From assembly GCA_008501635.1 (NCBI GenBank), contig QQUJ01000013.1, forward strand, positions 1-64,000: a stretch of DNA of 64,000 nucleotides, in the 5' to 3' direction. The translations under genes were made by a program, and so were the position numbers. Within the stretch, counting starts at the first letter, position 1. Every line of letters starts with the position of its first letter. This document shows positions 54,889 through 61,261 of this stretch, in pieces. The stretch comes from Pseudomonadota bacterium. Its GTDB lineage: Bacteria; Pseudomonadota; Gammaproteobacteria; QQUJ01. Below the pieces are notes generated by a model that was not told the DNA's origin, did no database searches, and saw only the letters and a program-made list of their open reading frames with translations.

Positions 54889-56298
54889 CTACAGGCTGTA
54901 GTACATATCGAACTCGATGGGATGAGTGGTCATGCGCAGACGGGTTACCTCGTCCATTTTGAGCGCGATGTAACCATCGATCATATCGTTGGTAAACACG
55001 CCTCCCTGAGTCAGGAACTCGCGATCCTTGTCCAGATAATCCAGCGCCTGATCCAATGAATGGCAAACGGTCGGGATCTCCCTCAACTCCTCGGCGGGCA
55101 GGTCGTAGAGATCCTTGTCCATGGCGTCGCCCGGGTGCATCTTGTTCTGAATGCCGTCGAGACCGGCCATCATCATGGCCGCGAACGCCAGGTAGGGATT
55201 GGCCATCGGATCGGGGAAGCGCACTTCGACGCGGCGGCCCTTGGGGCTCGACACCCAGGGAATACGCACCGAAGCCGAGCGGTTGCGTGCCGAGTAGGCC
55301 AGCAGTACCGGTGCTTCGAAGCCGGGGACCAGCCGCTTGTAGCTGTTGGTGGACGGGTTGGTGATGGCGTTCAGTGCACGGGCGTGCTTGAAAATACCAC
55401 CGATGTAGTAGAGGGCGGTTTCCGACAAACCACCGTAGAGATCGCCTGAGAACAGGTTCTTGCCATCCTTGAACAAGGACTGGTGGACGTGCATACCGGA
55501 TCCGTTGTCACCGACCAGAGGCTTGGGCATGAAGGTGGCGGTCTTGCCGTAGGCATGGGCCACGTTCAGGGTGACATACTTCTGGATCATCACCCAGTCG
55601 GCGCGCTGCGTCAGAGGGCCGAATTTGGTGCCGATCTCGCACTGACCGGCGGTGGCGACTTCGTGGTGGTGCACCTCGACCGGCACACCCATCTCTTCCA
55701 TGGTCAGACACATGGCGTGACGGATGTCGTGCAGCGAATCGACCGGCGGTACCGGGAAGTAGCCGCCCTTCACGGAGGGGCGATGGCCGATATTACCGCC
55801 TGCGTAAACGCGCTCGGAGTTCCAGTCGGCCTCGTCGGAGTCGATCTTGACGAAGCAGCCGCTCATGTCGGTGCCCCAGCGGATATCGTCGAGGATGAAG
55901 AACTCGGGCTCGGGTCCGAAGTAAGCGACGTCGGCGATGCCGGTGGATTGCAGATAGGCCTCGGCGCGCTTGGCGACAGAGCGTGGATCGCGCTCGTAGC
56001 CCTGCATGGTATTGGGTTCGAGAATATCGCAGCGGATGTTGATCTGCGCCTCTTCGGAGAAGGGATCCAGTACGGCGCTGGCGGGATCCGGCATCAATAC
56101 CATGTCGGATTCGTTGATCCCTTTCCAACCGGCGATGGACGAGCCGTCGAACATCTTGCCGTCGGTGAAGAGTTCATCGTCGACCATGGTGACCGGCATG
56201 GTCACATGCTGCTCCTTGCCGCGGGTGTCGGTAAAACGCAGGTCGACAAACTTGACCTCGTTATCCTTGATCATCTTGAGCACATCGGATCCGGACAT
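54889..56298 (-). CDS. glnA: Glutamine synthetase type I
   Basis: 469-aa dodecameric glutamine synthetase (ATP + glutamate + ammonia to glutamine), same length as E. coli GlnA. N-terminal [21 protein letters not shown]; metal-site [55 protein letters not shown]. The adenylylation loop [11 protein letters not shown] with Tyr near residue 397 marks the GSI-beta, GlnE-regulated class. Its own sigma-54 promoter with NtrC sites lies upstream and a strong terminator downstream. Confidence 0.97.
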
Positions 56299-56553: not shown

Positions 56554-56598
56554 CGCTCTATTATGGTGCGGTAAAAAAAGAGTGCACCATTTTGGTGC
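56554..56598 (-). promoter_or_regulatory. Two NtrC binding sites upstream of glnA
   Basis: Strong site at 56583-56598: TGCACCATTTTGGTGC, matching the NtrC consensus except for the last base beyond it. Weaker site at 56554-56570: CGCTCTATTATGGTGCG, with one good half-site. Centres are about 29 bp apart, close to three helical turns, at roughly -205 and -233 from the predicted glnA start. The strong site begins right after the CDF gene's stop codon. Confidence 0.8.
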
Positions 56599-57768
56599 CT
56601 AATGGTAGTAGATACGGACTTCACCCACGTATTGCAGCCGTTTGGCACCCTCGTGCAGGGCACTGCTGAGTTGCTTCTGCGCCTCCCGCGATTCCGCCAC
56701 TGCCACGGGCAATACCACCTCGAGATGCACCTTGCCATCCAGGTAATGCAGGATGATGCGTTCTGCCTTGGCTGCGTGCTCGATGCCGCTCCATTCGTCA
56801 TTCAGAGCAGCCAGCAGCTTTGACCGCATCGGCAGCCCGACCGAAGGGATGACCTCCTCGTCGTCCTCGGGATCGATATGAACGGTGACATCGGAGACGT
56901 CCTTGAGTTCGCGCACCAGCCGCGCCCGCACCTTCTCGCTGATCAGATGACCCTCCGAGACGCTGAGCATGGAATCGACCATGATGTGCACATCGACAAA
57001 CGCATCGGCTCCCAGGCGTCGGCTGCGCAGCATGTGCATGGCCTCGACGCCCTCCACCGACATGATCACCTGGCGTATGCGCTCGACGGTCTCGGCATCG
57101 AGGCCGGTGTCGATCAGATCGCGAACCCCCTCCCAGCTGAGATCCCAGGCGATCTTGGCGATCATCAGCGCGACGAAGATGGCGGCGACGGCGTCGAGGT
57201 AGGGCAGTCCGGCCATGGAGCCACCAACGCCAATGATCACCACCACTGAGGAGATGGCGTCGCTGCGATGATGCCAGGCGTTGGCGCGCAACAGCGATGA
57301 GCGGATGCGTTTGGCGGCGGCCAGCGTGTATCGGGTGAGGATCTCCTTGGCGATCACCGAAACCACGGCCGCCGCCAAAGCCAACCAGCCGGGCGTCAGC
57401 AGTTTCTCGGGCTCAAGCAACCGCAACGAGGCATCGTAGAGGATTCCGGCGGTAACCATAAACAGCAAGACACCGACGATTACCGTGGCGAGCGTCTCGA
57501 TCCGCCCGTGGCCGTAGGGATGCTCGGGATCGGGATCGCGGCTACCGTGCTTGGAGGCCACCAGCACCACACCATCGCTGATGAGATCCGACAGCGAGTG
57601 AATCCCGTCGGCGATCAGGGCCTGGGAGTGACCGATCCAGCCCAGCACGATCTTGATGATGGCGAGCAACAGATTGACGATCGCGCCAATGACCGTTACG
57701 CGGCGCGCAACGCGGTAGCGTGACTCCTCGGCGGTTTGCAGGTCGTCGATGACGGCGTCGTCGCTCAT
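56599..57768 (-). CDS. Cation diffusion facilitator (CDF) metal efflux protein
   Basis: 389-aa CDF transporter with six membrane helices (about residues 25-215) and a cytoplasmic C-terminal domain. Transport-site motifs are the HSLSD segment (IADGIHSLSDLISDG) in helix 2 and HHRSD (AWHHRSDAISS) in helix 5; HPYGHGRIETLA lies between helices 2 and 3. The HxxxD pairs are as in zinc/iron/manganese exporters; the metal cannot be read off. An unusually long tail holds a second regulatory segment (LLAALNDEWSGIEHAAKAERIILHYLDGKVHLEV). It overlaps tusA by 4 bp and is translationally coupled to it. Confidence 0.9.
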   Translation of the reverse strand: MSDDAVIDDLQTAEESRYRVARRVTVIGAIVNLLLAIIKIVLGWIGHSQALIADGIHSLSDLISDGVVLVASKHGSRDPDPEHPYGHGRIETLATVIVGVLLFMVTAGILYDASLRLLEPEKLLTPGWLALAAAVVSVIAKEILTRYTLAAAKRIRSSLLRANAWHHRSDAISSVVVIIGVGGSMAGLPYLDAVAAIFVALMIAKIAWDLSWEGVRDLIDTGLDAETVERIRQVIMSVEGVEAMHMLRSRRLGADAFVDVHIMVDSMLSVSEGHLISEKVRARLVRELKDVSDVTVHIDPEDDEEVIPSVGLPMRSKLLAALNDEWSGIEHAAKAERIILHYLDGKVHLEVVLPVAVAESREAQKQLSSALHEGAKRLQYVGEVRIYYH

Positions 57769-57995
57769 GTCGCACACACCTCGATTCTTACCCGGACATC
57801 GTCTTCATCGCGGTGAGTGCTCACTAACTTGTGACCATGAATCCGGCACCAGGCGGGAATATCGTTGAGCGCGCCGGGATCGCTGGCGATTACCTCCAGG
57901 GTGTCGCCGGGGGCGAGCCTGAGGATCTCGTTCTGGGTCTTGATCACCGGCATCGGGCAGAGCAACCCGCGGGCATCCAGCACATGGTGGCTCAT
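57765..57995 (-). CDS. TusA-family sulfur carrier protein
   Basis: 76-aa TusA-fold protein. The start HHVLDARGLLCPMPVIKTQNEI contains the sulfur-carrying Cys13 in the CPxP signature. GDTLEVIASDPGALNDIPAWCRIHGHKL is the conserved middle with a second Cys. Such carriers pass persulfide sulfur to tRNA thiolation or to sulfur oxidation. ATG 57995 overlaps the stop of the PP-loop gene (ATGA), and its own stop overlaps the CDF start (ATGA), so three genes are tightly coupled. It could be TusA proper or a paralogue dedicated to its neighbour; no tusBCD are present here. Confidence 0.9.
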   Translation of the reverse strand: MSHHVLDARGLLCPMPVIKTQNEILRLAPGDTLEVIASDPGALNDIPAWCRIHGHKLVSTHRDEDDVRVRIEVCAT

Positions 57996-59035
57996 ACATA
58001 CCATTCCGGAGGGATCTCCTCCTGCAGCAGCGGCTTGACGCTGATGGTGCGACGTTCGCCACCCAGAGGGGTCACCGCGACGCTGACACTCTCGGCCTCA
58101 CGACCCTGGCTGAAGCGCGCGGTGAGCTGTGCGGCGAGGAGCAGATCGTCATCGCTCGGCTCGCCATCGATCAACACCATGGGGCCGTTGTGACTGACGG
58201 TGAAGAGATGGGTATACCGCTTGCGGTAGCCTTCCAGAAACTTGGTCTCCCCGGCTTCGCGCGCCACGATCATTTTGAAGTGCGGGCGCGGGCGCAGGTG
58301 GCGGCCGATCTTGAGCAGCAGGATGTCATCCAGGTCGTAGTCGCGCACACCGCGACCCTGCCACAGATCGCCGAGCCGCTTGGCGTAGCTCTCGTCGGTA
58401 AGAAAGCAGCAACCGCCAGCCGGTTGCGCGTAATCGTTGATCCCGAATTCAGCGGCCATCGCCATCTGCGGCTTGCGGTTGCGACCATTCAGGGCGTAGA
58501 GCTTCTCGCGATCGATCCAGCCCTCACGCTCGGGCAGCGTCGGGGGGAGGAGCTTGGCGCACAGCGGTCGTAGCAGGCGATCCTCAGCGCCTGATTCCCG
58601 GGCCACCACCGGCATGGTGTCGCGACGCTGGGACATGGGCCGCTGCCCGACTACCTCACCGGTAATGACGAAATCGAAGCCGTTCTCCTCGGTCCACTCC
58701 AGGGCCTTGCGGACCATGAAGATCTTGCAATCGAGACAGGGGTTGAGATTCGCGCCGTAGCCGTGCTTGGGGTAGAGCAACACGTCCTTGTACTCCTCGG
58801 CGATATCGACGATGTGGAGCTTGATGCCCAGCTGCTCGGCAACCCACAACGCATTGTTGCGCTTGGGCTTCTCCTGGTTGCGTTTGCGGATGGCGTGGGT
58901 GTGGCCCTCCACACAGAAGCCGGTGTAAAAATTGATCCCTTCTACGTGAACGCCCTGTTCCATCACCACCTTGGCCGCCAACATGGAGTCCAGGCCGCCG
59001 GAGATTAGCGCCACCGCCTCGGGTTGTTTCTTCAT
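57992..59035 (-). CDS. PP-loop ATPase/thiolase-family protein with C-terminal NFACT-R-like domain (probable RNA sulfur transferase)
   Basis: 347-aa protein related to MnmA-type tRNA thiolases. The N-terminal PP-loop is S12-GGLD-S17 for ATP pyrophosphatase chemistry. Candidate catalytic or metal-binding cysteines are C41, the NPC100-LD-C103 pair and GGC209-C210. MITGEVV-like and GQRPMSQR segments follow the PP-loop fold. The C-terminal part (about 235-347; DDILLLKIGRHLRPRPHFKMIVAREAGE) looks like the RNA-binding NFACT-R-type domain. Exact product unknown. Coupling to TusA suggests sulfur delivery to this enzyme. The frame is open to 59098, but MKKQPEAVALISGG at 59035 starts the conserved region. 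Confidence 0.8.
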   Translation of the reverse strand: MKKQPEAVALISGGLDSMLAAKVVMEQGVHVEGINFYTGFCVEGHTHAIRKRNQEKPKRNNALWVAEQLGIKLHIVDIAEEYKDVLLYPKHGYGANLNPCLDCKIFMVRKALEWTEENGFDFVITGEVVGQRPMSQRRDTMPVVARESGAEDRLLRPLCAKLLPPTLPEREGWIDREKLYALNGRNRKPQMAMAAEFGINDYAQPAGGCCFLTDESYAKRLGDLWQGRGVRDYDLDDILLLKIGRHLRPRPHFKMIVAREAGETKFLEGYRKRYTHLFTVSHNGPMVLIDGEPSDDDLLLAAQLTARFSQGREAESVSVAVTPLGGERRTISVKPLLQEEIPPEWYV

Positions 59036-59119: not shown

Positions 59120-61234
59120 CTAGGTGGTCAATTTGGCCAGCAGTTCAAGTTGTGCACAGCGCACCTTCTGGCCGCGGGGCTGGGTTGGCTTGTAGCGCCC
59201 GTCGGATTCCAGTAGCCAGGCCTGGGTATTGTCCTTCAGGTAGAGGGTAATCTCGCGCAGGATGCGCTGGATGATTTTCTTGTCCTCGATGGGGGTGGCC
59301 GCCTCGACGCGCTGAAAGAAGTTGCGGTTCATCCAATCGGCGCTGGAGATATAGAGCCGTGGCTCGCCGCCATTCTCGAAATAGAAGACACGGTGGTGCT
59401 CGAGGAATCGCCCGACGATGGACCGCACCTTGATGTTTTCAGAAACCCCGGGCACGCTGGGGCGCAGACAGCAGATACCGCGGACGATCAGCTCGATCTT
59501 CACCCCCGCTTGCGACGCTTCGTAAAGAGCGCGGATGATCTGCGGTTCAACCAGGGAATTCATTTTGGCGATTATCCGGCTGGGCTTGCCCGCGCGTGCA
59601 TTATCGGCTTCCTGGCGAATGAGATCGATCATCCCCTTGTGGAGCGTGAACGGGGACTGCAGAAGTTTTTTCAGCTTGATCGCTTTGCCCAGGCCGGTGA
59701 GCTGGTGGAAGAGTTTATGCACATCCTCGCCGATGTCCCGATCGCAGGTCATGAAGCCGTAATCGGTGTACTGGCGTGCAGTGCCGGCGTGGTAGTTGCC
59801 GGTGCCGAGGTGGCAATAGCGGCGAATATTGCGCCCTTCGCGCCGTACCACCATCAGCAGCTTGGCGTGGGTCTTGTAACCCACCACGCCGTAGACCACG
59901 TGGGCGCCGGCCTCCTGCAACCGGGTCGCTAGCGCGATGTTGGCCTCTTCGTCAAAACGGGCGCGCAACTCGATGACCACCGTCACCTCCTTGCCGGCCC
60001 GGGCGGCACGCACCAGCGCATCAACGAGACGCGACTGGGGGTCCGTGCGGTAGAGCGTCTGTTTGATGGCCAGGACATCGGGATCGGTGGCGGCCTGGTT
60101 GACCAGATCGATCACCGGTATGAACGCCTGAAAGGGGTGGTGCAACAGAAGATCGCCGCGTTTCAGGACGTCGAACAGGTTCTCGTTGCGCGAGATTCTC
60201 TGCGGCAGGCTGGGAACGAAGGGCGGGTATTTGAGATCCGGCCGGTCCACCAGATCGATGATGGCCGCCAACCGATTGAGGTTCACCGGCCCCTGTACAC
60301 GGTAGAGGTTATCGGGCCCGAGCTCGAACTGGCGCAACAGGTAATCCACCATGTGCGCGGGGCAATTCTCCGCCACCTCGAGGCGCACGGCATCACTGAA
60401 ACGACGGGCGTGGAGCTCACCGGCCAATGCCTTGAGCAGGTCGTCTACCTCCTCCTCGTCGACGAACAGATCGCTATTGCGGGTGACCCGGAACTGGTAG
60501 CAACCCGTCACCGTCATGCCCGGGAACAGTTCACCGACATGCGCATGGATGATCGATGAGAGGAAGACGAAGTCGTGTTCGCCTTTGGCGTACTCCTTGG
60601 GGATGTGAATCAGGCGCGGCAGCGAGCGCGGTGCCTGGACGATGGCAATGGTGTTTTCGCGCCCGAAGGCGTCCTTGCCCTCCAGTGAGACAATGAAGTT
60701 CAGCGATTTGTTGAGGATGCGCGGGAAAGGGTGCGCGGGATCGAGCCCCATGGGGGTGAGCACCGGCAGTACTTCGCGGTTGAAGTGGCGCCGTGTCCAG
60801 TCACGCAGCCGTTCGTTCCAGTGGGCGCGTTTGGCGAAGCGGATACCAGCCTTGTCGAGCGCCGGAATCAGCTCCTCGTTGAGCACCCGGTACTGCTCGG
60901 CGACGATTTCGTGGGCGCGTTTGCCAATCAGCGCGAGCTGTTCCTGCGGTGTCAGCCCATCCTGTCCCACCTGGATAGCCCCGTACTCGACCTGTTGGAT
61001 GAGACCCGCCACACGTATCTCAAAAAATTCGTCCATGTTGCGGCTGGAGATGCAGAGAAAGCGCAGACGCTCCAGCAGCGGCGTATCGGGGTTGCGGGCT
61101 TGTTCCAGAACGCGATGGTTGAACTCCAGCAGACTCAGTTCGCGGTTGAGATAGAGTTCCGGGGCGTCGAGATTGATCGGCGCCGCGACAACCGGGGCGG
61201 TGGTGGTTTCCACAGTTTCGTTCATCAGATTCAT
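59120..61234 (-). CDS. ppk1: Polyphosphate kinase 1
   Basis: 704-aa polyphosphate kinase (polyP synthesis from ATP), membrane-associated. Landmarks are LYLNRELSLLEFNHRVLEQA, SRNMDEFFEIRVAGL, DLLLHHPFQAFIPVIDLVNQAATDPDVLAIKQTLYRT, VVIELRARFDEEANI, the catalytic-His region GYKTHAKLLMVVRREG, and YISSADWMNRNFFQRVE. Three in-frame ATGs exist (61261, 61234, 61225). I chose 61234 because AGGG precedes it and because the Pho box immediately before 61261 would put the mRNA start downstream of that first ATG. Confidence 0.93.
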   Translation of the reverse strand: MNLMNETVETTTAPVVAAPINLDAPELYLNRELSLLEFNHRVLEQARNPDTPLLERLRFLCISSRNMDEFFEIRVAGLIQQVEYGAIQVGQDGLTPQEQLALIGKRAHEIVAEQYRVLNEELIPALDKAGIRFAKRAHWNERLRDWTRRHFNREVLPVLTPMGLDPAHPFPRILNKSLNFIVSLEGKDAFGRENTIAIVQAPRSLPRLIHIPKEYAKGEHDFVFLSSIIHAHVGELFPGMTVTGCYQFRVTRNSDLFVDEEEVDDLLKALAGELHARRFSDAVRLEVAENCPAHMVDYLLRQFELGPDNLYRVQGPVNLNRLAAIIDLVDRPDLKYPPFVPSLPQRISRNENLFDVLKRGDLLLHHPFQAFIPVIDLVNQAATDPDVLAIKQTLYRTDPQSRLVDALVRAARAGKEVTVVIELRARFDEEANIALATRLQEAGAHVVYGVVGYKTHAKLLMVVRREGRNIRRYCHLGTGNYHAGTARQYTDYGFMTCDRDIGEDVHKLFHQLTGLGKAIKLKKLLQSPFTLHKGMIDLIRQEADNARAGKPSRIIAKMNSLVEPQIIRALYEASQAGVKIELIVRGICCLRPSVPGVSENIKVRSIVGRFLEHHRVFYFENGGEPRLYISSADWMNRNFFQRVEAATPIEDKKIIQRILREITLYLKDNTQAWLLESDGRYKPTQPRGQKVRCAQLELLAKLTT

Positions 61235-61261
61235 ATTCGGTTGCACCCTATCAGGATGCAT

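Follow-up and report, generated by a model that had tools for sequence, protein, structure and literature searches.

The tRNA nucleoside 4-thiouridine (s4U) ranks among the most abundant thiolations of bacterial tRNA and serves as a near-UV sensor, and many bacteria are without ThiI. The TusA of E. coli works in the formation of s2U34 and not in that of s4U. A tRNA 4-thiouridylation pathway of the NFACT-R/PP-loop/TusA type was reportedly predicted by Burroughs and Aravind in 2014 (RNA Biology). A citing paper confirms that this 2014 paper exists and links it to NFACT domains, and a 2022 study treated PF02568-PF18297 proteins as markers of s4U (PMC9239080). RudS is a proven tRNA s4U desulfidase that removes s4U from tRNA (PMC11417400), and TudS recycles 4-thio-UMP (PMC10611767). 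The authors of the RudS study left open why whole RudS-bearing groups have no ThiI, and guessed that these groups carry differently built ThiI homologues (PMC11417400). Among other thiolases, NcsA and TtuA use a CxxC motif plus a third cysteine to bind a [4Fe-4S] cluster (PMC10067955), and one archaeal ThiI that contains a CxxC motif depends on Fe-S (PMC8584467).

The window, the whole analysed stretch of 64,000 nucleotides from a gammaproteobacterial genome, contained an operon of three minus-strand genes. The PP-loop gene (57992-59035) started with ATG at 59035, ended in ...EWYV-TGA and encoded a 347-aa protein with a ThiI-like HUP domain and an NFACT-R_2 domain. It was followed by tusA (57765-57995), encoding a persulfide sulfur carrier with a CPxP motif, and by cdf (56599-57768), encoding a CDF-family metal exporter. 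The TGA of the PP-loop gene overlapped the ATG of tusA as ATGA, and the tusA stop overlapped the start of cdf in the same way. Both overlaps, already described in a sequence-only reading of this DNA, were confirmed from the reading frames and the sequence. The span given in that reading (57765-59035) covered only the first two genes, and cdf, which reaches 56599, belongs to the same transcription unit. Directly 3′ of cdf, a terminator-like hairpin with a T tail (56584-56598, minus strand; consensus match only) likely marks the operon end. The operon was flanked upstream by ppk1 (59120-61261) and downstream by glnA (54889-56298), both on the minus strand. The Rfam scan of the window gave no RNA element, and no sigma-70-like promoter was found upstream of the operon.

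The PP-loop protein had the architecture of an N-terminal HUP/PP-loop domain followed by a C-terminal NFACT-R_2 domain. PF18297 (NFACT-R_2) matched residues 244-346 with 121.6 bits (Pfam cut-off 26.9), and the HUP domain matched PF02568 and PF03054, both over the Pfam cut-offs (44.1 vs. 20.5 bits for PF02568). PF02568 also matched 75 of 75 relatives, and the combination of PF18297 with the ThiI HUP domain was present in all 75 family members, which came from many phyla. These matches agreed with the former description of an RNA-thiolase-like PP-loop enzyme carrying NFACT-R. Only HUP and NFACT-R parts were matched, and Pfam found no other NFACT domains in the protein. The residues named earlier (SGGLDS, C100/C103, C209/C210) and the NFACT-R region were all present. 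The PP-loop began at residue 12 (SGGLDS, residues 12-17) and was invariant in the family alignment. C100, C103 and C210 were invariant in 133 of 133 homologues, Fusobacteria included, as well as in the 75-row alignment; C209 varied among the 133. This triad matched the cysteine pattern of Fe-S thiolases (CxxC plus a distant third cysteine, TtuA/TtcA/NcsA type) and was shared with the Fe-S ThiI of Methanococcus maripaludis. The PP-loop protein differed from these enzymes in having NFACT-R where they have THUMP or zinc fingers, and its cluster is putative. In a Campylobacterota subgroup with ~60% identity (e.g., genomes G332, G377, G394, and G449), an insertion near residue 130 split the alignment in two.

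Among the closest described enzymes are ThiI and MnmA (tRNA 2-thiouridine(34) synthase). With ThiI, the protein shared the PP-loop HUP catalytic domain, the SGGxDS motif and the TGExxxQ..SQ motif of the catalytic domain, which read TGEVVGQRPMSQ in the window protein. The segment G126-Q136 was largely invariant (family form TGEVxGQRPMSQ), and the family had one extra residue between Q and SQ compared with ThiI. The form TG[ED]xxxQVxSQ was found in 14 of 14 ThiI sequences checked, with E or a neighbour varying in two; the TGExxxQ..SQ motif was not present in the MnmA of the same genome. Unlike ThiI, the PP-loop protein had neither NFLD/THUMP nor a rhodanese domain, and carried instead the C-terminal NFACT-R and the CxxC...C triad. 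The ThiI equivalog TIGR00342 scored 42.9 bits, far below its cut-off of 264.5, and covered model positions 172-313 only, with no full-length match. Because NFLD/THUMP was missing and the TIGR00342 match was partial and below the cut-off, the protein was not filed as ThiI proper. The earlier statement that it is not ThiI thus held for the full-length enzyme, but its catalytic domain has the ThiI motif and its gene replaces ThiI across genomes.

With MnmA, the family shared the PP-loop domain and an NPCxxC region that was more like MnmA than ThiI, and MnmA is fed by TusA in E. coli. However, the MnmA equivalog models scored only 48.3 and 40.3 bits on the PP-loop protein (cut-offs 284 and 236.95), and the true MnmA was encoded separately. 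By overall HMM score, the family was about equally near MnmA and ThiI. A PDB ranking with the 75-member profile placed ThiI 2c5s first (across TGExxxQ..SQ), then MnmA, and then the NFACT-R part of RqcH. The AlphaFold model built with the 75-row alignment reached pLDDT 92 and pTM 0.88, and the best fold matches of the predicted structure were MnmA and ThiI. The source genome encoded a full MnmA and TtcA elsewhere, in line with the earlier view that the PP-loop protein is neither. Full-length ThiI was not found in this genome, and a DUF1722 (RudS-type) gene lay outside the window at C10:47134-47484. A RudS-type gene without ThiI supports the idea that s4U is made here by the PP-loop protein.

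The distributions of ThiI and the PP-loop protein were compared in 274 genomes of the class, where the PP-loop protein was called at E < 1e-40 and ThiI as a full-length match. The PP-loop protein was present in 136 genomes and ThiI in 21, and one genome had both (Fisher p=1e-5). When each family was represented by a single genome, which was the sole way kinship was handled, 79 carried the PP-loop protein, 11 carried ThiI and none had both (p=7e-4); ThiI presence rests on one model, RudS presence on the DUF1722 domain, and some of the sampled genomes are incomplete. In the 150 genomes of Campylobacterota (the phylum of a Sulfurimonas MAG), 135 had the PP-loop protein, 11 had ThiI, none had both and four had neither (p=9e-14). 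No complementarity with TtcA was seen in the class, where PP-loop carriers had more TtcA, not less. In other phyla, full-length ThiI was also found in five of 40 carriers (three Clostridium, Oceanirhabdus, and one Syntrophomonas MAG; loci L148, L149, L152, L153, and L159), all Firmicutes. Universal exclusion of ThiI was rejected on these five genomes outside the two groups. Since they and one genome of the class (G220) carry both, replacement of ThiI is not universal, and where the two coexist their targets or conditions may differ.

DUF1722, taken as the mark of RudS, was found in 73 genomes of the class, including 62 with the PP-loop protein and 11 with ThiI, one of them having both. Thus 72 of the 73 had ThiI or the PP-loop protein; the single exception was an incomplete MAG, and another member of its genus has the PP-loop protein. 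Among ThiI-less genomes of the class, the PP-loop protein was present in 61 of 62 with RudS vs. 74 of 191 without it. Counted by one genome per family, the ratio was 40/40 vs. 39/107 (p=3e-14), and TtcA, taken as the control partner, gave p=0.07. The PP-loop family therefore fits the gap left by the RudS authors, being present in every ThiI-less, RudS-bearing family of the class that was sampled. In Desulfobacterota (the phylum of a Desulfobacteraceae MAG), the corresponding counts were 119/127 vs. 117/140 (p=0.012); the association there was weak and had little power because the PP-loop protein is near universal in that phylum. TudS (PF04463, DUF523) adjoined or overlapped the upstream end of the PP-loop gene in eight clostridial, Syntrophomonas-type loci (L147, L151, L153, L154, L160, L163, L172, and L180), and six of these eight neighbours were checked with Pfam.

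The second gene of the operon encoded a TusA-family carrier, with a PF01206 match of 86.8 bits and its catalytic cysteine in CPxP. It did not reach the NCBIfam TusA equivalog cut-off (57.6 vs. 78 bits), and by this model it is not the E. coli orthologue. Of the 123 informative loci of the class, 105 had TusA as the next gene 3′ of the PP-loop gene, and all 105 linked copies had a CPxP-type motif. The gene order, whose loss outside this genome had been named as a point against the earlier proposal, was therefore kept, and TusA was borne out as a tightly conserved partner. The operon TusA had 56% median identity to linked TusA elsewhere vs. 36% to its nearest paralogue in the same genome, which suggests a dedicated, co-inherited carrier. 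The cdf product exceeded the CDF models PF01545 and PF16916/TIGR01297, and CDF was also found downstream in 68 of 115 informative loci of the class. With TusA next in so many loci and CDF following in many of them, the gene arrangement is far beyond chance. CDF was absent from ~40% of these loci, and neither TusA nor CDF lay near the PP-loop gene in any of 80 loci of other phyla (profile search, with profile and coverage checked). The coupling is thus a trait of this lineage, and dependence on TusA may be lineage-specific; TusA linkage as a general feature of the family was rejected on the same 80 loci. The distribution of CDF indicated a frequent passenger, and neither a role in thiolation nor the previously suggested tie of the metal exporter to the module was supported. 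The source genome is rich in sulfur carriers: it had six TusA-domain matches, five of them outside the operon (C18:364395-364838, C27:42970-45188, and C30:200854-201060). Two of the five lay in one 187-residue frame, and two were close together on one contig.

On these grounds, we consider the PP-loop protein to be probably (about 80%) an alternative tRNA s4U synthase that acts at position 8 and replaces ThiI. The choice of s4U as the target is strongly backed by three comparative tests: the near-exclusion with ThiI, the co-occurrence with RudS and the adjacency of TudS. The RNA target, described as unknown in the sequence-only reading, can thus be given a best-supported candidate. By analogy with the ThiI family, the PP-loop would bind ATP and adenylate O4 of the target uridine U8, while NFACT-R would hold the tRNA in place of NFLD/THUMP. 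Among the ThiI proteins retrieved for the class and for Campylobacterota, most had a rhodanese-like cysteine loop at the C terminus (judged by eye, with no model score), and this part was absent from the PP-loop family. The gene coupling suggests that the adjacent TusA could supply persulfide sulfur in place of the fused rhodanese domain. The C100/C103/C210 triad probably binds a [4Fe-4S] cluster that would carry the sulfur to the activated base; alternatively, the three residues might supply persulfide cysteines. We would put at roughly even odds the broader proposal that ThiI-less bacteria of several phyla (many Gammaproteobacteria, Campylobacterota, and Desulfobacterota) make their s4U mainly with a [4Fe-4S]-dependent, TusA-fed synthase that binds tRNA through NFACT-R, which would explain the RudS genomes without ThiI.

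Three other explanations were weighed against the s4U synthase. The PP-loop protein might thiolate a different tRNA position: it could be an additional enzyme for s2U34 or s2C32, or could make a new thionucleoside, and would receive its sulfur from TusA as MnmA does in E. coli. The MnmA-like NPCxxC motif, the comparable HMM similarity to MnmA, the established feeding of MnmA by TusA in E. coli and the presence of ThiI as well in some Clostridia all speak for it. However, a full MnmA and a TtcA are already encoded in this genome, the PP-loop protein does not track the absence of TtcA, and the ThiI exclusion together with the RudS association is specific to s4U, so that this explanation appears improbable.

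Mutual exclusion with ThiI would equally be expected if the protein took over the role of ThiI in making the thiazole of thiamine instead of its role in thiolating tRNA, and ThiI does have a thiamine role in some bacteria. In Salmonella, however, thiazole synthesis needs only the rhodanese domain, according to a title cited in PMC11417400, and the PP-loop protein has no such domain; moreover, RudS and TudS tie the protein to s4U and 4-thio-UMP. A thiamine role was accordingly judged very unlikely. Still less credit was given to an enzyme of ribosome rescue or rRNA modification acting through NFACT-R, with tusA and cdf as incidental neighbours. It draws on the NFACT-R domain shared with RqcH, but the Pfam matches were confined to HUP and NFACT-R, the PP-loop and the cysteine triad were invariant, and the comparative signals pointed to s4U genes.

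The s4U synthase favoured here agrees with the pathway said to have been predicted in 2014 in its domain combination, its TusA association and its predicted product. The operon represents a previously predicted kind of module and the concept is not new, so the label of an uncharacterised module was too strong. The 2014 pathway is a prediction, and literature searches found no published s4U measurement, enzyme assay or other bench test of any family member. What the present analysis adds seems to be the counts of ThiI exclusion in two lineages and the associations with RudS and TudS. If the proposed role is true, this suggests that genes labelled "MnmA/TRMU family" or "7-cyano-7-deazaguanine synthase" are misnamed. 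Two family members, L032:4010-4990 and L033:3989-4990, were annotated as "7-cyano-7-deazaguanine synthase" and "MnmA/TRMU family protein," and both annotations are probably wrong for members of this family.
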